Shown one piece after another: positions 4,065-24,924 of a stretch of 37,959 nucleotides of DNA (within the stretch, counting starts at the first letter, position 1; the number at the start of each line of letters is the position of its first letter). The stretch covers positions 1 through 37,959 of IMG/VR virus record IMGVR_UViG_3300033048_000145; one strand, written 5' to 3'. The notes under the pieces were generated by a model, which saw nothing but the letters and a program-made list of their open reading frames with translations, was not told where the DNA came from and ran no database searches. The position numbers were made by a program, and so were the translations under genes. This DNA comes from a virus.

Positions 4065-4624
4065 CAATAAGCTCCTGTGATGTCGTGGATGCGATCTGCT
4101 TGGCGCAGATTTTCCAGCGCGTTGGTGAATTGAAGAGTGGAAAGGACGGCAAATTCACGGCTCATCAACAGATTGAGCGGTGGGCCGTTGGATACGATGT
4201 TGAAGCTGGCGGCATCGCCGTCCTCGATGATGTATTCCAGCGCAAAGAGATTGCGGGTTTGGGGCGATGCCCAATCAAGCGCCAGCGTTGGATGCGAGGC
4301 CACGGCGTAGAGCGTGCCGTCCGCCATCAAGAAGCCGATCTCGCGGATGTAATATTCCTCGGACGGCTCCACGATGAAGGAAATATCCTTCTGGAAATCG
4401 GAGACATTGCGCACGTCTTGAATTTCCGCACGGTCCTTTTCTGACCGAAGTGCTGTCGCTGTGGAGCGCCCCGTCGTTGCGTTGATCGGCACGGTGTAAC
4501 CCGTTGCCCCAAGCGCGATATGGGTGATGTCGACGGCAAAGCCGCCAGCCACCGCCGCCATGCGGGCCACGTGGCCAGCCTCGGTGGTGATTGGTGTGAA
4601 CAGGGCATCAGATGTTGTGGTCAT
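4064..4624 (-). CDS. Tail fibre N-terminal protein (DUF3751/gpH-like)
   Basis: This 186-residue protein resembles the conserved N-terminal segment of P2 gpH-type fibres. It has an early helix ending T-H-I-A-L-G, then R-S-T-A-T-A-L-R-S-E followed by acidic residues, then Y-Y-I-R-E-I-G-F-L-M near residue 90. These are hallmarks of the domain that attaches fibres to the baseplate. The protein is only this domain long, so the receptor-binding part is presumably carried by the next gene (3381-4064). It follows tail protein I, as in P2-type tails. Confidence 0.8.
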   Translation of the reverse strand: MTTTSDALFTPITTEAGHVARMAAVAGGFAVDITHIALGATGYTVPINATTGRSTATALRSEKDRAEIQDVRNVSDFQKDISFIVEPSEEYYIREIGFLMADGTLYAVASHPTLALDWASPQTRNLFALEYIIEDGDAASFNIVSNGPPLNLLMSREFAVLSTLQFTNALENLRQADRIHDITGAY

Positions 4625-4636
4625 GTCTCTTGGACC

Positions 4637-5404
4637 TCACGAGCTGGCGAGGCGCAGCCGCTTCACGGACAACGCTCTGGTGGATTGGGATAAGCCGGAG
4701 ATGATCTGCGGCTTGGGTGGCTGTTGGCCGACGTGAACGCGGTTGCGCTGAACCGAAGTCACACTCAGTCGGGTTGTTTGGGTTTGGGCCATTGGCAGGC
4801 GTGGCGGCATTTGCATCACGCGCATCCGAGCCTTGAGAACTCTCAGGCAGCGCAAGCGTTGCGCCGTGCGGATCGGGCGCAGACGCACCGCCACACCTTT
4901 GTAGATTGTGCTTTCTTGTGACCACCGTTTGGTGACATCAATCATCCGCTTTGCCGCGCGGATTTCACGTGCACCAAAGAAGGTTTGCTCATTTGGGAAA
5001 AGCTGTTCGCCAACATAAAAGATGATGGTGTGCGTGTTTGCAGGGCGCTTTGGCTCAACCTGATGCCAATGCTCAACCACGCCATTCATGCCAAGCAGTT
5101 CCAGACCAAGTTTGACGCCAGCGTCATAGCCCTTCAGCGCTTGTAAGGCCCAAATGTTTTTCAGAATGCGGCGCTGCACATGCTCTGGAAGTTCAGGGTC
5201 AATATAATCCTGCGCTGAAAATTCACGGATCATGAACGGCAATAGCTTTGCATCCACCGTCAACGGATCAGACATCACCAATGACGCGATATCAATCTCT
5301 GACAAGGCATCACCCAGAACGCGGGTTAAGGCCTCTTGGCGAGCGTCTTTGATGCCCGGCGGTAAAAGGGAGAGGGGAACAAGAGGGGCGGCGGGATTAG
5401 ACAT
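4637..5404 (-). CDS. Tail protein I (baseplate, gpI-like)
   Basis: This 255-residue protein has the gpI pattern L-L-P-P-G near residue 13, L-L-P-F-M-I-R-E-F near residue 53, and W-A-L-Q-A-L-K-G-Y-D-A near residue 85. gpI is a P2-type baseplate protein acting with J. The last 85 residues are unusually arginine-, glutamine- and proline-rich, unlike the rest, and may be a lineage-specific extension. The ATG lies inside the end of J (8-nt overlap), showing translational coupling. The order W-J-I-fibre matches P2. Confidence 0.85.
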   Translation of the reverse strand: MSNPAAPLVPLSLLPPGIKDARQEALTRVLGDALSEIDIASLVMSDPLTVDAKLLPFMIREFSAQDYIDPELPEHVQRRILKNIWALQALKGYDAGVKLGLELLGMNGVVEHWHQVEPKRPANTHTIIFYVGEQLFPNEQTFFGAREIRAAKRMIDVTKRWSQESTIYKGVAVRLRPIRTAQRLRCLRVLKARMRVMQMPPRLPMAQTQTTRLSVTSVQRNRVHVGQQPPKPQIISGLSQSTRALSVKRLRLASS

Positions 5405-6536
5405 TTTCCACCTCCTCGATATTTATGGCCAAGGCACCGATTTGCGCAAAGCTGGTTGCTGGCAGGTCAGTGAAATCAAACGCTGGCCCTGTCACGCCGA
5501 CAACACCGGCAATCGCCCGCACGGCTTCCACAAGGGCTGTTGGGGCGATCTGTGCGCCCAATGACAAGCGCCATTCGGCAAAGCGATCACGAATTAAAGC
5601 CTCGGCACGATCCTGCACCCCATCGGCCATGCCTTGCGTGACCTTCAGCGTCATCACCACATCAAAGATGACATTGGTGGCCTTGCTGATTGAAACATAA
5701 TCACCCATTGGGATCATGGTTTCAGCATCAAGGTATGCCAAGATTTCAGCATCCATCAGATTGCTGGAAACGCCATCAATCATCAAAGGCGTGATCTCGA
5801 TATAGCCGGGCTGGGTGCGGATCACTTCTACATCAGAAATCAGAGCGCTGACGGCTTTCACATTCTCGATATAGCCTTGGCGTGATCCACCTTTGGACAG
5901 CCGCTCAAATGCATTTGCAATCCGAATGCGAAACCGATCATCGCTTTCAATGTCGGCACCGCCATCGCTGATCAGAACATTGGCAACAGCAGAAACAAAC
6001 GCAACCGGATCAAGAATATCTTCAATTTGGCCAAGCTGTAGATCGTTGTAAGCCCCGCCCGCCTGATCAGCGGTGACATCAACATCGCCAGTTAGATTGC
6101 CCGCTGCAATCACCAGCTCTTTGGCCGTGGTGAAGATCAGATCACTGCCGGCAGAAACCCGTGTGCCTTGGGCAATGATCACGGCAGTTGCGCGGATGGC
6201 TGATAGGGTGAAGCGAACATTGGATTGCGCGGGTTGTGCCTTCAGGCGGTACGTTGACACATTGGCCCCGACCTCATCCAAATGCCGCCCTTCGGCCCAG
6301 ATCGCCCGATTTTGCAAAACAGCCGCTTGCGCGCCCTCGGCCACCATTGAAACGACGTAGGTCAGCAGATCAATAAAGAACATTTCTGTTTGGGCGGGAT
6401 AAAGGGTGCGGCCCGTTTCAGCCTCAAACTTTGTCACCAAGGATTTTTTGATTTTAGCGGTGTCGCGTTGGAAAAAATCAGGCACGGCAGCGGCGCGCAG
6501 CTCATCCAGCGAAAATGTTGCGGGTTGATCGGCCAT
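5397..6536 (-). CDS. Baseplate assembly protein J
   Basis: This 379-residue protein shows the baseplate J pattern: an N-terminal helix region, then G-A-N-V-S-T-Y-R-L-K-A-Q-P-A-Q near residue 90, then G-A-Y-N-D near 160, then S-D-D-R-F-R-I-R-I near residue 198 and G-G-S-R-Q-G-Y near 217. J-type proteins form the baseplate wedge together with W and I. Its start overlaps the stop of W (TAATG). Length and order match P2-type tails. Confidence 0.9.
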   Translation of the reverse strand: MADQPATFSLDELRAAAVPDFFQRDTAKIKKSLVTKFEAETGRTLYPAQTEMFFIDLLTYVVSMVAEGAQAAVLQNRAIWAEGRHLDEVGANVSTYRLKAQPAQSNVRFTLSAIRATAVIIAQGTRVSAGSDLIFTTAKELVIAAGNLTGDVDVTADQAGGAYNDLQLGQIEDILDPVAFVSAVANVLISDGGADIESDDRFRIRIANAFERLSKGGSRQGYIENVKAVSALISDVEVIRTQPGYIEITPLMIDGVSSNLMDAEILAYLDAETMIPMGDYVSISKATNVIFDVVMTLKVTQGMADGVQDRAEALIRDRFAEWRLSLGAQIAPTALVEAVRAIAGVVGVTGPAFDFTDLPATSFAQIGALAINIEEVENV

Positions 6537-13091: not shown

Positions 13092-14339
13092 TTACGCTGC
13101 CAACGAAAGCGCGCCTGCGATGAATTTGGTGTCGACATAGGAATGCGTGCTCAAGCGCTCCATGACGGTTGTCGGGTGGCATTCGAGTTTGTAATGGAAG
13201 TGGCCATCAGCGATTTCGGCAGGCGTGCTTCTCTCGCGGTCAAACCGATATGTGCCACCGAATAGAACCCCGTCACCGGTCTTTTTGCGCAAGAAAGCAT
13301 TGACGGCCTCTTCAAGAGCCTCGACATTTTGAGGGGTGCCTAAGCGGTCAACATACTGCATGGAAAAGAAGGTGATGGCGTCATGCAGCTGGTCCAAAAT
13401 ACGGCGCGCATTGATGAAATTTTCAACGTGGCTGGATGTCGGGAACGCGGCAGACCGGTTGCCATACGAGCGAAAACCGGTGCCAAAGCTGCGCATACAG
13501 GTGACGATGCCCGCTTCATTCAAGAAGTTGGTGTCATTGGCGGTGTCGGATGGATAGAAATTGATATCCGTTTCAATGCCGATCACGCCTGCGATTTCAC
13601 GGTTGGATGCAGAGTGATGATAGCCTTGCTCCAAATCAGTTTGGATCATCAGACCCGCAAGGCGCTGCGATAGTGGCTCAAGACGTTCATCGCCGGTGAT
13701 GGTGTCAGCCACTTTGACATGGGGATAGGTCAGGATTGTGCGTGCACTGGATGTGTTGGCGTTCACAACGCCACTGGTGCCGCGCGCTTCAACCGCCTGT
13801 TGCTTGGTCAGGCCAATCGGCAGATCGCAAATTGCCATGGCATTCAGCATGTGGGCCATGGCGTCCATTTCCACCCGAACGCCCGGCACACTGGATTGTG
13901 CCGACAAGATGATTTTGGGGAAATAACCAAACTTATTGTAGCAGGTTTTTGCACCGGACAACCCCGTGGCAATGCCGCTGGCATCAACACCGCCAATCAA
14001 ATCAGCAGCGGTTACCGCGCCGACATTTGCATGGCTGTCAGGATCATAAACATTGTTCACAATGATTGTGCCACCAGCGCCATGATCAAAGATCGCATCA
14101 AGCGCTTGCGGGATTGTGAAGCCAACGGTTTGCGGGCCGAACGCCGCCGCCGCTTCTTCACGGGTGCGCACAATGATCCGTTTGTTCACAAAAGCCGCAC
14201 GTTTTGCAGGCGTGTCATGAACGTCACCAATCGGGGCGGTGCCGTTGATATAGGTAACGGCAGATTTAACATCCCGAACGACAGAAACACCGTCTTTGTG
14301 TTCAATGACTTCGGGGCCGTGATGGAAATTTGCAGACAT
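13092..14339 (-). CDS. Tail sheath protein (gpFI-like)
   Basis: This 415-residue protein resembles the P2 FI sheath. It has the N-terminal H-H-G-P-E-V-I-E segment, a V-K-S-A-V-T-Y-I-N-G-T-A-P region near residue 24, a conserved central part with G-Y-F-P-K-I-I-L near 138 and F-R-S-Y-G-N-R-S-A near 292, and a C-terminal R-I-L-D-Q-L-H domain. It forms the contractile sheath. AAGGAG lies upstream of the ATG. Finding an FI-type sheath behind Mu-type head genes marks the tail as a P2-type module. Confidence 0.9.
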   Translation of the reverse strand: MSANFHHGPEVIEHKDGVSVVRDVKSAVTYINGTAPIGDVHDTPAKRAAFVNKRIIVRTREEAAAAFGPQTVGFTIPQALDAIFDHGAGGTIIVNNVYDPDSHANVGAVTAADLIGGVDASGIATGLSGAKTCYNKFGYFPKIILSAQSSVPGVRVEMDAMAHMLNAMAICDLPIGLTKQQAVEARGTSGVVNANTSSARTILTYPHVKVADTITGDERLEPLSQRLAGLMIQTDLEQGYHHSASNREIAGVIGIETDINFYPSDTANDTNFLNEAGIVTCMRSFGTGFRSYGNRSAAFPTSSHVENFINARRILDQLHDAITFFSMQYVDRLGTPQNVEALEEAVNAFLRKKTGDGVLFGGTYRFDRERSTPAEIADGHFHYKLECHPTTVMERLSTHSYVDTKFIAGALSLAA

Positions 14340-17133: not shown

Positions 17134-17505
17134 TTAGCCGGTGATTTGTTGCGGCTGGATCAGGATGTCGAGTTGTGCACCAACGCCACCACTTTCCAGC
17201 GCCCGACCAATGACCAGCATTTGAACGCCAGCAGCAGGGGCGGCAGGGATTGCGCGACCATCGGCATCAGCCGTTATAAATTGGCCGGCAGTGACAACCA
17301 CTGCACATTCAACAGGCCGGACGCCATCCAGATAAACATCCAGCCGTTCACCAGACTGCGCACCACGAACACCCGACACGCCAAATGATCCCGCATCACC
17401 GATTGCCTGCTTTACCAAACCAGAGCTGGCACCAAAGGCCACGATACGGCGCTTTTCCACCAGCGTTTCAGTGGTGAAATTCTTAACCAAACCAAAGTGG
17501 TTCAT
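17134..17505 (-). CDS. Capsid decoration protein (DUF2190-like)
   Basis: This 123-residue glycine- and alanine-rich beta protein has G-A-S-S-G-L-V-K-Q-A, then the V-A-T-like G-V-R-G-A-Q-S-G-E-R-L-D-V-Y-L-D-G, then G-x-x-I-T-A-D-A-D-G-R-A-I, and a C-terminal V-I-G-R-A-L-E-S. This pattern is typical of DUF2190 cement proteins that stabilise the capsid. It overlaps the protease/scaffold gene by 4 nt and precedes the major capsid gene, as expected. Confidence 0.8.
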   Translation of the reverse strand: MNHFGLVKNFTTETLVEKRRIVAFGASSGLVKQAIGDAGSFGVSGVRGAQSGERLDVYLDGVRPVECAVVVTAGQFITADADGRAIPAAPAAGVQMLVIGRALESGGVGAQLDILIQPQQITG

Positions 17506-17957
17506 TTTGCGGCTCCTTTCGAGACGTGTTCAACAGCGTCAGAAATTGAAATTTCAATGCCCTTGCTCGCCAGATCAGTCTTATGGGCCAGAGCAAATTC
17601 AGCGATCTTGTCAGGATCGTCAGACAGATCACCCTCGACACCCAAATCGGTCTCGGCGAAATCAACCATTTTAGGCTGGGCCTTCAGGATCGACATCAAG
17701 GCATCGGCCAGCGGTGCGGCTTCACCTTCAGCAAAGGAAACGCTTTGATCGGCGGGCAGGGCATCCAGTAGCGTAACAACGCTGGCTTGCGATGCAGGCA
17801 ACAGCTTGCCGTCTGCCACAAGAGCTTCAGCAAAGGTTACATGATCAGCACCACGTCGCGTGGCCTCACCCGCTGCAAACGTGGCATCGCGCACATTCAG
17901 CGCATCTTCACGGGCTTTCAGTTTGGCCTGTTCAGCGGCCAGCTCTTCAGGGGTCAT
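17502..17957 (-). CDS. Nested scaffold protein (internal start in protease gene, Mu gpZ-like)
   Basis: Codon 220 of the protease gene is ATG, encoding M-T-P-E-E-L-A-A-E-Q. It is preceded by AAAAGGA at about 7-8 bases, which is a proper ribosome site. The product would be 151 residues, helical and acidic, equal to the scaffold part. Mu makes its scaffold gpZ in just this way from within gene I. The internal start is visible in the sequence. That it is used is inference. Confidence 0.7.
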   Translation of the reverse strand: MTPEELAAEQAKLKAREDALNVRDATFAAGEATRRGADHVTFAEALVADGKLLPASQASVVTLLDALPADQSVSFAEGEAAPLADALMSILKAQPKMVDFAETDLGVEGDLSDDPDKIAEFALAHKTDLASKGIEISISDAVEHVSKGAAK

Positions 17958-18614
17958 ATCGGTATCCTTTTCAATAGGGGCCGTAAACACGGTTAGGTCG
18001 GCGTCCTTGGGGTTAATTTCTGTGCGGCCCAGCCATTCAATCCGGTAATCGGGCAAAACCTGATCGGCGGTTTCCTTGCCGAATTTTTCAATGAACCATT
18101 CTCGCAATGCCCGGAACATATCCGCCGTATTCTCAAAACCGGCCTCACCGAACGCGGCTTCAAAGGTGACGCTTTCATCATCCTTGCCTTGTGCGAACTG
18201 GACCGGTGCAAGCCCCGATACGGCAGGGGCCGCGCCCCCAAGAAAACCAATGTGCTTGGCTGACCATTGTCCGGGCGTCGGGTTGTTGGGGGCATCGGGG
18301 GTGTGAAAGGACATTGAGACCTTTTTGTAGCGCCCATCTTCTACCGCCTCGACAAACTCAGGTGCCAGATCACCAATGTCGGCAAACAACAGGTCTGCAT
18401 CAGCGTCATATTCAAAGCCCATAACCCAGCCATAGGCAGGAGTATCAGTTTTGGGGTGACCAATTACGACAGGTGCAGGAGCCGCATCAAAATCATAGCT
18501 CGACGCAATGCCCGCCAGATCAGCGGCGCTGTAGGTGACAGCCACGCCAGACATCGGGGTGAAGGTTCCCGAACGGAAAACCTCAATTCGGATGCTGGTT
18601 TTTGGTTTTGACAT
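17502..18614 (-). CDS. Prohead protease with C-terminal scaffold (Mu gpI-like)
   Basis: This 370-residue protein resembles Mu gpI. The N-terminal 200 residues have V-V-I-G-H-P-K-T-D-T-P-A-Y-G near residue 49 and the Y-K-K-V-S-M-S-F-H motif near residue 96. These hold the likely catalytic His and Ser of the family. Residues 220-370 are helical, acidic and rich in E, K and A, as scaffolds are. The protease cleaves scaffold and capsid in the prohead. An internal in-frame ATG with its own ribosome site lies at 17957 (separate entry). AAAGGG lies upstream of the ATG. Confidence 0.87.
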   Translation of the reverse strand: MSKPKTSIRIEVFRSGTFTPMSGVAVTYSAADLAGIASSYDFDAAPAPVVIGHPKTDTPAYGWVMGFEYDADADLLFADIGDLAPEFVEAVEDGRYKKVSMSFHTPDAPNNPTPGQWSAKHIGFLGGAAPAVSGLAPVQFAQGKDDESVTFEAAFGEAGFENTADMFRALREWFIEKFGKETADQVLPDYRIEWLGRTEINPKDADLTVFTAPIEKDTDMTPEELAAEQAKLKAREDALNVRDATFAAGEATRRGADHVTFAEALVADGKLLPASQASVVTLLDALPADQSVSFAEGEAAPLADALMSILKAQPKMVDFAETDLGVEGDLSDDPDKIAEFALAHKTDLASKGIEISISDAVEHVSKGAAK

Positions 18615-19940: not shown

Positions 19941-20249
19941 TCAAATTATATATTCTGTCACTGACAAGCCGCAGTTTTTGGCCAAGGCCAACTCGGCTGA
20001 CACGCCCACGGATTTTTCCCAATCGGGAAGTGGAACAATCTCGTCGGCTTCTTCACAAATAAATTTGCAGTATTCTGCGAACGCTTTTCGGATGGGGAAT
20101 GTTTCGTGTGGCCCGTCATGCGGAAATTCTGCGGGATTATATACGGTATTTCCTTTTGCACGAAGCTCAGAGGCAACCCGCATAAACAAAGGATAGTTGC
20201 TTTCAGCATATCCCTTCATCGGGCCGGATAGGTATATTTTGTTAGCCAT
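19941..20249 (-). CDS. DUF4406 / nucleoside 2-deoxyribosyltransferase-like protein
   Basis: This 102-residue protein starts K-I-Y-L-S-G-P-M-K-G, followed by N-Y-P-L-F-x-R-x-A near residue 18, Y-N-P-A-E-F near residue 37, and V-P-L-P-D-W-E-K-S-x-G-V-S-A-E-L-A-L-A near residue 73. This is the DUF4406 pattern, related to the 2-deoxyribosyltransferase fold that binds nucleotides. AGGAGCG precedes the ATG. Its enzymatic role, perhaps in nucleotide salvage or modification, is inference. It is the first gene of the insert after the portal/F terminator. Confidence 0.8.
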   Translation of the reverse strand: MANKIYLSGPMKGYAESNYPLFMRVASELRAKGNTVYNPAEFPHDGPHETFPIRKAFAEYCKFICEEADEIVPLPDWEKSVGVSAELALAKNCGLSVTEYII

Positions 20250-20344
20250 CAATTTCGCTCCTGTTTGACTGTTTGCATTTGCGCATCTATATTATCCATG
20301 TTGTCAGCTTGCTCGATGATGCAGCCTGAATTCCTGACAATCAC

Positions 20345-20379
20345 AAAACCGGTGGATCATCCCAGCCGGTTTTTTTATT
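20345..20379. terminator. Bidirectional terminator-like hairpin after portal/F gene
   Basis: AAAACCGG at 20345-20352 pairs with CCGGTTTT at 20366-20373, with a T-run to 20376 on the plus strand and TTTT on the minus strand. It overlaps or touches the end of the portal/F gene (20375) and would separate it from the DUF4406 insert. Confidence 0.65.
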
Positions 20380-23260
20380 CCCGCTTGTAAATCAGCACAC
20401 CAGACCGGCGTTTATCAATTTGTGAAACGTCCGTTCGGATGCTGTTTCCCCTCGCCGGTCTAAAGGCCGTTTTGGCAACCCATCGCCCCTTCAACAGCTC
20501 GAAGATTGCCAGAAACCCAGTTTTTGGATCAACGCGGATATACTTTCGATCCAGAACCAATTCGGTGCCGCCGCCTTGGTGCGCCGGTATTTTGACGCTT
20601 GCCACACCAACCCAGATTTCATCAGGATCAGCGATGGTTTCCGCCAGCCGCGCAGAATGAACTTCGCGGCCACGTTTCATCACTTTGTATTCGCCACGGG
20701 CATCCCGGAACAATTCATCCGAGATCGGCACAACGCCGCCCGCCTTGTCAGCAAACAACACAGCCGCGCCACGCTTGGCCCCAAACGGCTTGAGGAAGGC
20801 GTCAATATAGGTTTCGACAGACAAGCCCGATTTCATTTCCGTGGCTTTGAACTTGTGTCCTGATGCAACGAGATCGGCAATCGGGTTGGCCTGATCCACT
20901 GTGAATGCCGATTTTGCTGCCAGCCGATCCATTTGCGATGGCACAAGCCCGCGTTCCCACAAATCGCCGGGCTGATATTCAAACCCGCGACCAATGCCGT
21001 CATCATTGCCGCTGGGGCTTTCGTCTGGCCCTGACTTGCCAAGGCGCTTCAGATCGCGCGCAGAAAGTGTTCTGACACCACAAGAGCAGCCCCAATCGTT
21101 TGGTGGAAAATGGTTGTCCCAGAACGGATCATCCGCCGCCAAGATCAGACCATCCCAAGCCAAATGTTGCGGGCGCGCTGATTTTGGTTTGCGGGTTTGG
21201 GCATGGCGATACTGCCAGAATGGGCGGGCTTTCAAAACATCAGGATCACGCATCTGTTTTAGGCGACCCGCCATATAGGATGTGCGGACGTTGGTTTCAA
21301 AGATCACGCGGGTGCGCCAGCTGCGAGCGCCATTAAATGACCAGCCGTATTTTGCGACGATCAGCTCAAAGTCTTTTCTGAAGGCCCGCAATCCGGTGCC
21401 GTCATGTATTGCTTTTTGGATGGCGTTTTGAAAATCTTCCAACATGGCGAGGTCTTTTGCACCGGCAATCACAAAAGAACGGTCATGGTCGCCATGCATG
21501 ATGTCAGTCCACGTGGATGTTGGCCGTGGTGATTTCTGGCTCAAGAAATCAATCTGTTCTTTGAACGGTTTGCTGAACACATTCAGGCTGGCAAAGCTGG
21601 CATCATCGGCCATTTCAACCATCACCGCGTCACGGCCCGCATATGCACTGGCATTCAAGGCCAGTTTGATGGTCGCGGCAAAGGCGTCCACCTTCCATGT
21701 GGTGTATAGCTTCAGAGCGGCTTTGGCGGCACCTTCCAGCGTGTCGGCTTTGGTCAGCACATCAAACAGATCATCTAACCGGCGCTGATCCCAATCGGCC
21801 CCGAAATCCTGCAAATGCGAAACCAGCTGGGTTTGAATGTCCTGATCTGAAGCATCGGCAAAGCTGGTGGTGTCGGATCTGTTTTTACCCGCGCTCGGCT
21901 GGCTGGATTTCAGGGCTTTTTTTTTAGGCTGTTTTTGTTCGGATGCCGCAAAGGCCGTGCGGCTTTTCATCAAGGTATCAATCATGTCAGCGCCCAGATC
22001 ATCCGGTGCCATTGTTTGAATATATTGGCGAGCGGCCTCATCATCCGCAAACAACGAGGCTGTGGCAACCACGGCCCGTAGTGCTTTGTTGTTTTCAATG
22101 GAAGCGGTTGCTTTTGCTGTGAGCGTTTTCGCATTGGCAAGCTCATTGGCCGCGCGCACCCGCCAGACATTTGGCACAGCTGCACCGGGGAAATTGTAAT
22201 CAACCATCCATTGGATCAGGGTTTCCCGCAAGGTGACGGATAATAGGTCCGCATCCGCATCGACCAGCATTTGCAAAATATCGGCGTGGACCTCACCAGC
22301 CGCACGCGATCCATTGCCTTGGATGTCTGTGGTTAAGGTTTCGCCCAATGTCGTGATGGACATCTGGCTGTCCCAGTATGCGCACCACTCTTTATAGGAT
22401 GCCGATCCAGCTCGGGATGCTTCCAACAGACTGACTTCGGTCCCAACTGGAACTCTGATCGCACCCGCAGTCACCATGTTTGCAATCGAGTTTAAAAGCT
22501 TATCCTCTTCACCGTTGCCCAGTCCAAACGGTGTCTTGGCAATTACTGTTGGGGCAGCGAACTTATCAAGGAAGGTCATCCAAAAGGCAACGCCCTCACG
22601 TTTGAACAAAACAGCCCAAAATAAGCGAGTGCCAATACCCAAGCCATAGGCATTGTTTCCTTTGACACCGTGGCGATGCACAATAAATTTACGGTCAAAT
22701 AACGCAATGCCATCTTGCATGTTTTCCACCGTCAACAGGCGTGGCTTCCAATCCAGATCAAAAACAAACCGGCGCTGATCATGTGTTTTGATTTGGACCG
22801 GAACAATTCTGTTATTCTTTCGGCCCCAAACCACTTCAGAGACCGCATAACCCTTTAAGGTGGCATCCAGTAGGTTTTCGCAGATCAGATCAAACGGCAA
22901 GGCTTCCAGCTGTTCGGTGACAAATTCAGCCGCATCAAGATCAATCTGATCCGTTCCACCCGGCTTCACTTCCCATTCCCGCGCCACAAGGTTTTTCTTG
23001 CGCTTTTCCAAAACGGCGGCGGCGTGGGTGTCACGTTCGATTTCATCATAAATCGCCAAGCCTTTAATGCCGCCCCTTTTCACCAGCGTGTCATCAACGG
23101 GCTGCAACACACCTGTAAAGTTCGGGATCGTGATGTCATTTCTGGCATTCGCCACCAGCATTTTGGCAGCGGCAGGCAAGTTCTTTTGCGGCAGATTTTT
23201 GTCTGTGTCAGCCGATTGGGCAAAATCTTCTGATGCTGAAGCGGTGTCTGAATGGGTCAT
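20375..23260 (-). CDS. Fused portal (Mu gp29/DUF935) - head morphogenesis (gp30/F) - PBECR2-like nuclease
   Basis: This 961-residue protein combines three parts. Residues 1-440 are the DUF935 portal, with R-D-T-H-A-A-A-V-L-E-K-R near residue 76 and W-G-R-K-N near 145. After a lysine-rich linker (447-451), residues about 555-740 are the SPP1 gp7/Mu F-type part, with F-E-T-N-V-R-T-S-Y near residue 654 and W-G-C-S-C-G-V-R at 723-730. Residues about 815-961 look like a phage-Barnase-EndoU-colicin-RelE nuclease (PBECR2-like), with V-H-S-A-R-L near residue 867 and a C-terminal segment rich in R, S and T. In Mu, gp29 and gp30 are separate, so this is a fusion. The frame is open throughout with no break. 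Confidence 0.85.
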   Translation of the reverse strand: MTHSDTASASEDFAQSADTDKNLPQKNLPAAAKMLVANARNDITIPNFTGVLQPVDDTLVKRGGIKGLAIYDEIERDTHAAAVLEKRKKNLVAREWEVKPGGTDQIDLDAAEFVTEQLEALPFDLICENLLDATLKGYAVSEVVWGRKNNRIVPVQIKTHDQRRFVFDLDWKPRLLTVENMQDGIALFDRKFIVHRHGVKGNNAYGLGIGTRLFWAVLFKREGVAFWMTFLDKFAAPTVIAKTPFGLGNGEEDKLLNSIANMVTAGAIRVPVGTEVSLLEASRAGSASYKEWCAYWDSQMSITTLGETLTTDIQGNGSRAAGEVHADILQMLVDADADLLSVTLRETLIQWMVDYNFPGAAVPNVWRVRAANELANAKTLTAKATASIENNKALRAVVATASLFADDEAARQYIQTMAPDDLGADMIDTLMKSRTAFAASEQKQPKKKALKSSQPSAGKNRSDTTSFADASDQDIQTQLVSHLQDFGADWDQRRLDDLFDVLTKADTLEGAAKAALKLYTTWKVDAFAATIKLALNASAYAGRDAVMVEMADDASFASLNVFSKPFKEQIDFLSQKSPRPTSTWTDIMHGDHDRSFVIAGAKDLAMLEDFQNAIQKAIHDGTGLRAFRKDFELIVAKYGWSFNGARSWRTRVIFETNVRTSYMAGRLKQMRDPDVLKARPFWQYRHAQTRKPKSARPQHLAWDGLILAADDPFWDNHFPPNDWGCSCGVRTLSARDLKRLGKSGPDESPSGNDDGIGRGFEYQPGDLWERGLVPSQMDRLAAKSAFTVDQANPIADLVASGHKFKATEMKSGLSVETYIDAFLKPFGAKRGAAVLFADKAGGVVPISDELFRDARGEYKVMKRGREVHSARLAETIADPDEIWVGVASVKIPAHQGGGTELVLDRKYIRVDPKTGFLAIFELLKGRWVAKTAFRPARGNSIRTDVSQIDKRRSGVLIYKRE

Positions 23261-24924
23261 CTGATCCGGTAGCCTTCTGTTACTGATGTGGATGGGCGGC
23301 GACCTGTTGTGGCAATCTCACCACCTGATGATGCGCCGCCTGAATACTGAATGCCAAAATGCCACAACATATCCAGACAATCAGGTCCGTCATCATGGTC
23401 GGCATTTGGCCATTGCTGAAGCTGATCAATCAATGTCGTCTGCGTCGGATTGATGCGGATCAAACCTTCCTTGATCGGAGGCTGCAAGCGCTCGATGCGC
23501 AAATCTTTATCTGTAAATGGAGTGACCGGCATTGCAGGCAACGACACATGGTTTTTCGCAGCTTCTTTCATCAGGGTTGTGCGCAAGAACTCTTGAAACT
23601 GCACCGCTTCAACGAACCACAGGTGGCACTGATATTCCCGTTGCAGCTGGATCGTTTCGCTGATGATGACATCGGGAAGGCGTTTTCTGATTGAGGCAAC
23701 CAGAAGATCCATGGTGCCATTGTCTGGATTAAACCCGCCGATTAGAATTGCGGATGGGTCACGGCCTTTGGACTTCTTTCCCAACGATGGATCAATTGCA
23801 CCAAAATGGATCAGCTTGGGCAATCGCTGCACCCAATAGACGATATCGCCAAATGGGTTGTTCTCTGAAATCGGTTTGTTCTGGTATTCGGTTGCAAAGC
23901 TGGAATGGCTGTTGGCGCGCTTGGCCATCAAAAAATGCAGTGGTTGCATGGACGGCCAATTGACCACAGCACCTTTGTCCATTTCAGATTGTCGGTGCTT
24001 GTAGAATGCATGTGCCGCATCTGGCCCGTCATTGTGGTAAACCTCTTCAAAGGCGTCCCACAAATCCATGCGATCCGGCCAAGACATGATCGCCTGAAAC
24101 TTGGTGGTGTTCCATGCAGCGGCTTTTGCCTTGCGCGATAGTACGGCGTCAAAATGCAAAATGGTGCCGACATAAATAATCTTCAAAGAGCCATCGGGCG
24201 GACCCACTTCAGAGACCGCCTTATCAACCCAGCTTTCTAACTTTCTGCGCTGTTCTGGCGATCTAACGCTATCGTCATTTTCCAGATCATCCAGAAACAC
24301 CAGACCGGGGCGAAACGGGCCATGGCGACGACCACGCACTTTTTGGTTCGCGCCCAACCCTTCAACGCGAATATCGTTTTTGGTGACAATTTCACCCTCA
24401 CGCCAAACGCGGCCAGCCCCACAGGCGGCGGGGAAATCATGTGCAAGACGCGGATTGGTGGTCAGCTCGGATTTGATCGCCTCAATCAACAAGGCGGCTT
24501 GGCTGTAGACATCACAGATTTCGAGAATGTATTTTTCCAAACCCAAGGCGATCACATAAAGCGCGCCACCCAAAGATAGGTGGGTTGATTTGGATGATCC
24601 ACGCGGGGCAACAAAGCATTCCTTGGCACCCTTTTGCTTGTTGCCGTCCATGGCATACATCACTTCAGGAAACCGCTTGAAAACAGAGGTGTGGAATAGG
24701 CTGGCATCGCCCTTCACATAATGGGGCAAATAGGTTTCTACAAAAAACTGAAACCCAGTCGTTTTGTCGTTAACTTTTTTGATCCGCTCCGATCTGCTTT
24801 TGGGATCAGACGGGAAGGCATCAACTGACAGCTCAACCCAACGATCCAGTGACGCGGCATGTGCGGCCACCGCTTCCCGAAACTGTGCGGGCGTTAGATT
24901 GGATTGTAATTTGGGGCGCTTCAT
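23257..24924 (-). CDS. Terminase large subunit (Mu gp28-like)
   Basis: This 555-residue protein is the packaging motor. Walker A is A-P-R-G-S-S-K-S-T at residues 106-114 and Walker B is L-V-F-L-D-D at 208-213. The nuclease domain begins with G-A-I-D-P-S (D378), and a late H-D-D-G-P-D-C-L-D segment supplies acidic metal ligands. It cuts and pumps DNA into proheads. In Mu-like phages this is headful packaging starting in host DNA next to the prophage end. It overlaps the DUF1804 gene and the portal fusion by 4 nt each (ATGA). Confidence 0.92.
   Translation of the reverse strand: MKRPKLQSNLTPAQFREAVAAHAASLDRWVELSVDAFPSDPKSRSERIKKVNDKTTGFQFFVETYLPHYVKGDASLFHTSVFKRFPEVMYAMDGNKQKGAKECFVAPRGSSKSTHLSLGGALYVIALGLEKYILEICDVYSQAALLIEAIKSELTTNPRLAHDFPAACGAGRVWREGEIVTKNDIRVEGLGANQKVRGRRHGPFRPGLVFLDDLENDDSVRSPEQRRKLESWVDKAVSEVGPPDGSLKIIYVGTILHFDAVLSRKAKAAAWNTTKFQAIMSWPDRMDLWDAFEEVYHNDGPDAAHAFYKHRQSEMDKGAVVNWPSMQPLHFLMAKRANSHSSFATEYQNKPISENNPFGDIVYWVQRLPKLIHFGAIDPSLGKKSKGRDPSAILIGGFNPDNGTMDLLVASIRKRLPDVIISETIQLQREYQCHLWFVEAVQFQEFLRTTLMKEAAKNHVSLPAMPVTPFTDKDLRIERLQPPIKEGLIRINPTQTTLIDQLQQWPNADHDDGPDCLDMLWHFGIQYSGGASSGGEIATTGRRPSTSVTEGYRIR

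Follow-up and report, generated by a model that had tools for sequence, protein, structure and literature searches.

Among virions that lack the low-copy MuF-type protein, only ~25% are infectious, and in phage Mu gp29 and gp30 are separate proteins. Fused arrangements are also on record: Iyer et al. (2017, PMC5512222) described a PBECR domain joined to MuF and portal, and Microbacterium phages have portal-MuF fusions (PMC7302621). These share the architecture of the locus analysed here; in the portions of both papers available to us they appear as fixed fusions, with no mention of a slippery run or of an alternation between fused and unfused states. The production of a short and an extended protein from one gene is exemplified by Thermus dnaX (tau/gamma), which combines a run of nine, a genomic-frame long product and closely following stops in the shifted frames, much as seen here. 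According to PMC5009743, the run of Thermus thermophilus dnaX lies in frame, mRNAs of several lengths are made, near stops exist in both shifted frames and the products stand at ~1:1; some other dnaX genes have the opposite phase. Runs of nine A or T slip efficiently in bacteria (PMC5009743), and selection against A/T runs in coding regions commonly begins at nine (PMC1088944). Whereas dnaX is a cellular clamp-loader gene for which slippage is known, the present case concerns a phage portal gene to which a minor head protein and an RNase-like domain are added, with slippage deduced from sequence. Phage genes that yield a short and an extended virion or assembly protein in a set ratio include those of Listeria phage PSA, the T3 and A2 capsids and lambda G/GT; as presented in the same text (PMC5009743), these employ ribosomal frameshifting for capsid or tail proteins, and none concerns a portal.

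In the nearest named phages—RcapMu, RcWaterboi, Rhizobium RR1-B and EBPR siphovirus 4—portal and F are encoded by separate ORFs, F being in the -1 frame. Each of these four has A8 or A9 at the end of its portal gene, and its F frame continues without a stop back across the run. RcapMu genes 36/37, among the closest named relatives (~52% identity), have the same junction, with F in -1 and a run of A8. In GenBank, gene 36 carries the remark 'possible +1 frameshift would allow readthrough', and for gene 37 the lack of a good ribosome-binding site is recorded. The annotation nevertheless gives two separate genes with a downstream F start, which is contradicted by the conservation described below. 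Annotated F starts in L001 (RcapMu, 4425-5906), L002, L003 and L004 lie ~80-125 nt 3′ of the run, inside the conserved F-frame peptide. These starts are probably mis-annotated, F being an extension of the portal.

The stretch of DNA analysed here, hereafter the window, comprises the 37,959 bases of a virus record, and its genes form the set of a Mu-like transposable phage. Upstream of the portal gene lie a terminase large subunit and a DUF1804 protein; downstream follow a Mu G-like protein, a protease/scaffold, a decoration protein and the major head protein, and the window also carries tail sheath, tape measure and baseplate genes, a transposase and a DNA transposition protein. A small ORF resembling DUF4406 / nucleoside 2-deoxyribosyltransferase (19941-20252, minus strand) is situated between the fusion and the Mu G-like gene. 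The head maturation protease gene (17502-18614, minus strand) has a homologue in RcapMu annotated with an internal start, so the head module may hold a second arrangement in which two products derive from one gene. The tail sheath gene (13092-14339, minus strand) marks the window phage as contractile-tailed, whereas RcapMu has a flexible non-contractile tail and yet the same head junction, head and tail modules having been exchanged. The features of the junction region are as follows.

23257..24924, minus strand: terminase large subunit, upstream, with an ATGA overlap with the portal start
20375..23260, minus strand: portal-F-PBECR2 fusion ORF, 961 aa (zero-frame product), open throughout
22127..23056, minus strand: Portal_Mu domain, residues 69-378 (PF06074, E 1.6e-96)
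21917..21925, minus strand: A9 slippery run, codons 446-448 (KKK), candidate site
21910..21912, minus strand: TGA reached at once on loss of one A, giving a portal-only end at 449 aa
21885..21887, minus strand: TAA about ten codons on after gain of one A or a ribosomal -1 shift, ~459 aa
21854..21925, minus strand: linker of predicted disorder, residues 446-469 (pLDDT <50, residues 1-24 of the F model)
21074..21436, minus strand: Phage_Mu_F domain, residues 609-729 (PF04233, E 9e-13)
20384..20800, minus strand: PBECR2 predicted RNase domain, residues 821-959 (PF18810, E 4e-27; model pLDDT 87, pTM 0.82)
20666..20668, minus strand: Arg865, candidate catalytic position in the N-terminal helix (Arg/His in 45 of 46 relatives)
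20468..20470, minus strand: Thr931, candidate catalytic Ser/Thr in strand 4 (Thr in 44 of 46 relatives)

An earlier reading of the window, here called the original prediction, had proposed that portal, head-morphogenesis and nuclease-like domains are fused in a single frame of 961 residues. Profile searches confirm this, the frame lying on the minus strand. Portal_Mu scores 324 bits against a curated cut-off of 23.9, and the portal part is also matched by sequence to the PDB portal chains 9khx and 8rka; PF04233, the MuF minor head protein family, adjoins portal and terminase and scores 49.4 bits (cut-off 29.6), and PF18810 (PBECR2) scores 95.2 bits (cut-off 27.1). The lysine-rich linker proposed between portal and F is likewise present (KQPKKKALK), and it is encoded by an uninterrupted A9, the coding sequence reading CCT AAAAAAAAA GCC CTG.

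The A9 is the sole homopolymer of at least eight bases within the window. Two profile-based scans of viral contigs combined with a BLAST frame analysis yielded 137 clade loci, defined by a portal at least 44% identical to that of the window, of which 89 were left after those at least 95% identical to one another had been dropped. A junction run of A8 to A10 is present in 68 of these 89 non-redundant relatives (64 A9; two A10, L015 and L017; two A8, L001 and L029), and no further homopolymer of eight or more occurs across the 192,623 bases of paired portal/F genes in the run-bearing loci. The gene pairs have a mean GC content of 61% and elsewhere write lysine as AAG rather than otherwise at 2122:819, and the run is never interrupted by AAG. 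It is found in codon phases 0, 1 and 2 with its length unchanged, which indicates that the DNA run, and not the lysine residues, is conserved. A search of 2.9 million viral contigs for the pattern GCTC-A9-NN-CTGA returned 31 occurrences, 25 of them at a portal/F junction. The 395 genomes of the family to which a metagenome-assembled (MAG) copy of the window belongs contributed extra -1 loci with A9 (L195, L196) and extra in-frame loci (L199 with A9, L200 with A10); loci with distant portals (24-32% identical) in the same genomes have no run.

Relative to the portal, F lies in the -1 frame in 53 of the 68 run-bearing loci, in frame in 14 including the window, and in +1 in a single locus. The latter, L029 (position 4042), combines A8 with F in +1 and fits neither main phase; it is possibly a one-base sequencing error or a recent contraction. 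In the 53 loci of the -1 state, the portal stop is located directly behind the run. In the window, loss of one A would give AAA AAA AAG CCC TGA and hence an immediate stop. In each of the 14 in-frame loci, one or both shifted frames meet a stop no more than four codons past the run, reached by loss of one A in, e.g., the window, L005, L016 and L027 and by gain of one A in L018, L056, L061 and L129, against a background of 0.28 for such a near stop at other codons of the same genes. Assuming six independent origins—related loci not being independent—the chance of near stops in all is ~5e-4. In L199 and L200, the in-frame loci of bacterial chromosomes, a shift in either direction soon meets a stop (within 3 and 5 codons). 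When substitutions are counted over disjoint pairs of -1 loci, codon positions 1/2/3 of the portal frame receive 100/78/170 before the run and those of the F frame 65/57/142 after it, the latter differences reading 57/142/65 in the portal frame. By this sequence measure, the translated frame changes at the run, and selection acts on both frames at the junction. Among A9 loci, a portal-domain tree requires at least six changes between the in-frame and -1 states, with the run retained; inner support of this tree is moderate, and its branches with strong support demand no fewer than three changes of the in-frame label.

A conserved F-frame peptide resembling RHVCFAE begins a few codons behind the run. 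In A9 loci, usually no ATG, GTG or TTG precedes this peptide, and no Shine-Dalgarno sequence is found; exceptions among the -1 loci are L008, L015, L017 and L064, with GTG or TTG within 40 nt. Because starts before the conserved peptide are usually missing and Shine-Dalgarno sites are absent, independent translation of F was rejected for most A9 loci. The 21 loci without the run are organized differently. Here, F is a separate gene in 19, and the portal stop mostly overlaps the F start as ATGA or GTGA (e.g., L048, L052, L055, L067, L140, L154). This ordinary type of coupling is present in the window between terminase and portal and missing at its portal/F junction. In the genome locus L197, which is of the ATGA type, F begins M-K-H-V-C-F-A-E, and in many A9 loci the HVCFAE motif is placed a few codons past the run with no start codon between; the run thus occupies the position of the relatives' start codon. 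In the two remaining run-less loci, L007 (4001-5515) and L142, portal and F are fused in frame. As L007 is ~62% identical to the window, the slippery site can vanish while the fusion persists. The comparison with related phages suggested in the original prediction gives both answers, the proteins being fused in some relatives and encoded by separate ORFs in others, among them the nearest named phages and most run-less loci.

The assignment of the C-terminal region to the PBECR2 group is upheld by the PF18810 match, by an AlphaFold model with the expected order of elements and by conserved Arg/His and Thr positions. Structure prediction, proposed as a check, was carried out on residues 813-961 and produced a confident model, a helix followed by four strands and a final strand (helix 50-65; strands 69-78, 87-97, 104-111, 114-121 and 143-147 in model numbering). 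Position 865 is Arg in 38 and His in 7 of 46 relatives. By the description in PMC5512222, rather than by superposition, Arg865 and Thr931 fit the active-site pattern, including a class with Arg in place of His, and are candidate catalytic sites. Ala873, Glu874, Pro879, Asp880, Glu881, Trp883, Arg905, Tyr907, Arg909, Asp911 and Trp927 are invariant in the alignment, which comprised the window and viral-contig loci only. Neither F nor PBECR2 alone had a clear PDB match by Foldseek or VIA-align 2, an absence that does not count as evidence; two chains of CDI systems appeared at Z 2.6 amid noise. PBECR2 was detected in all 47 relatives scanned, and judged by these sequences the PBECR tail is the standard C-terminus of the F family and not a special cargo. 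Mu gp30 is reported to bear an inactive C-terminal PBECR domain, some orthologs being considered active (Iyer et al. 2017, PMC5512222), so a nuclease-like tail is no addition peculiar to the window phage. In polymorphic toxins of the MuF class, a variable C-terminal toxin is accompanied by an adjacent immunity gene; the C-terminus of the relatives scanned is a constant PBECR2. By analogy to MuF biology, delivery of the predicted RNase into the host is plausible.

What the sequences establish is the conserved run, its phase relations, selection acting on the two frames and, for most members, the absence of a separate start for F. On these grounds, the window ORF is probably one phase state of a conserved recoding cassette, in which slippage of the dnaX type yields a portal and a portal-F-PBECR2 protein. 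As in Thermus dnaX, the polymerase would slip while transcribing the nine A's that close the portal gene, and ordinary translation of transcripts with A8, A9, A10 and so on would give two proteins: a plain portal of ~450 aa, terminated just behind the run, and a portal joined via a flexible linker to the MuF minor head protein and the PBECR2 RNase-like domain. In most relatives the unslipped product would be the plain portal; in the window it would be the fusion, with slipped transcripts supplying the plain portal. Slippage is probably performed by RNA polymerase and not by the ribosome, as the analogy to dnaX suggests. Programmed -1 ribosomal frameshifting is an unlikely source of the second product, although A AAA AAA in portal phase is contained in every A9 run, F occupies the -1 frame in 53 of 68 loci and RNA structure just 3′ of the run slightly exceeds that of controls (mean z -1.06 vs -0.26). 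A heptamer would suffice for frameshifting, yet the length is held at nine and AAG never breaks the run; Shine-Dalgarno-like motifs upstream—a common, not an obligatory stimulator—are depleted (1 of 68 loci vs 9% in controls), and no strong conserved hairpin was found at the usual spacing, 5-9 nt downstream, the consensus structure being weak. Moreover, the nearest stop is in +1 in some in-frame members and in -1 in others, and near stops in either direction fit two-way slippage better than -1 frameshifting. From the sequences, polymerase slippage is estimated to be roughly three to four times likelier than ribosomal frameshifting.

A constitutive fusion in the in-frame members including the window, with the A9 as a relic and portal and F split, if at all, by proteolysis, has a slightly smaller chance than ribosomal frameshifting. 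In its favour, no stop interrupts the frame across the three domains, a gene for a head maturation protease is situated downstream, and portal-MuF fusions exist elsewhere (PMC7302621). L007 and L142, as in-frame fusions without any run, speak against slippage and indicate that a constant fusion can be viable. However, of the 16 clade members in which both domains are joined in frame, 14 keep exactly A9 despite the AAG preference for lysine, all 14 run-bearing in-frame members retain a near stop in a shifted frame, and the in-frame state arose several times on the tree. That the fusion is an error of sequencing or assembly at a homopolymer is hardly credible. Homopolymers are prone to such errors, and A8 (L001, L029) and A10 (L015, L017) are recorded. 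Yet the run in the window has the consensus length, and the frame is set by bases outside it (A9-GCCTGA in RcWaterboi vs A9-GCCCTGA in the window). A second, diverged assembly has the same in-frame A9: NVTS01000013.1, the MAG contig (Marinosulfonomonas NORP109), is near-identical to the window (99.7%, no gaps) and not identical to it. The in-frame state with a run also recurs in 13 other relatives in viral contigs and in L199 and L200 in bacterial genomes. Given the consensus run length, the second assembly and the many independent in-frame records, a sequencing error joining two genes was rejected. The MAG copy (L006) has an N directly behind A9-G at the recoding site (position 4346); the other positions at which it departs from the window along this stretch are mostly N as well, the remainder being true substitutions.

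The original prediction had further argued that portal and F are made one-to-one, which would imply proteolytic processing. This is not supported: the linker is a slippery A9 whose sequence and location are both conserved throughout the clade, and both frame states appear to encode both products, so that polymerase slippage is a simpler route to unequal amounts than proteolysis. As the leading idea, a forced 1:1 portal:F ratio coupled to proteolysis is weakened by the A9 evidence. The probable use of slippage would be to equip the portal ring with F domains in limited number, to be packaged with the head and perhaps released into the host; carried by a fraction of the portal subunits, F would have a similarly low copy number and a defined place. 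If unslipped transcripts are dominant, members of the window type would make mostly fusion, the opposite of SPP1 with its reportedly known one to two F copies, and efficient slippage, proteolysis or a tolerated ratio would then be needed. The portal:F ratio of the window phage would accordingly be either inverted or equalised through efficient slippage. We give about an even chance to the broader proposal that slippage at A9 sets the number of portal subunits with a covalent F-RNase arm, resulting in a mixed ring whose cargo load is fixed at transcription, and that phase flips in evolution keep both products.

While the architecture is known, the conserved slippery run at the portal/MuF junction, the phase switching and the replacement of the run by ATGA restarts are new. 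Searches of the open-licence literature turned up no earlier description of slippage or frameshifting in portal genes, nor of a conserved slippery run where portal and MuF meet, of phase switching or of ATGA restarts taking the place of the run. A slippage origin of F would explain the apparent lack of a good F start in RcapMu and its relatives; many public annotations of the portal/F pair are therefore probably wrong. If the proposed mechanism is true, the portal, the nucleating part of the tailed-phage head, would join the short list of genes with programmed slippage, and these phages would possess a genetic means to set the ratio of a symmetric ring to a low-copy internal protein.
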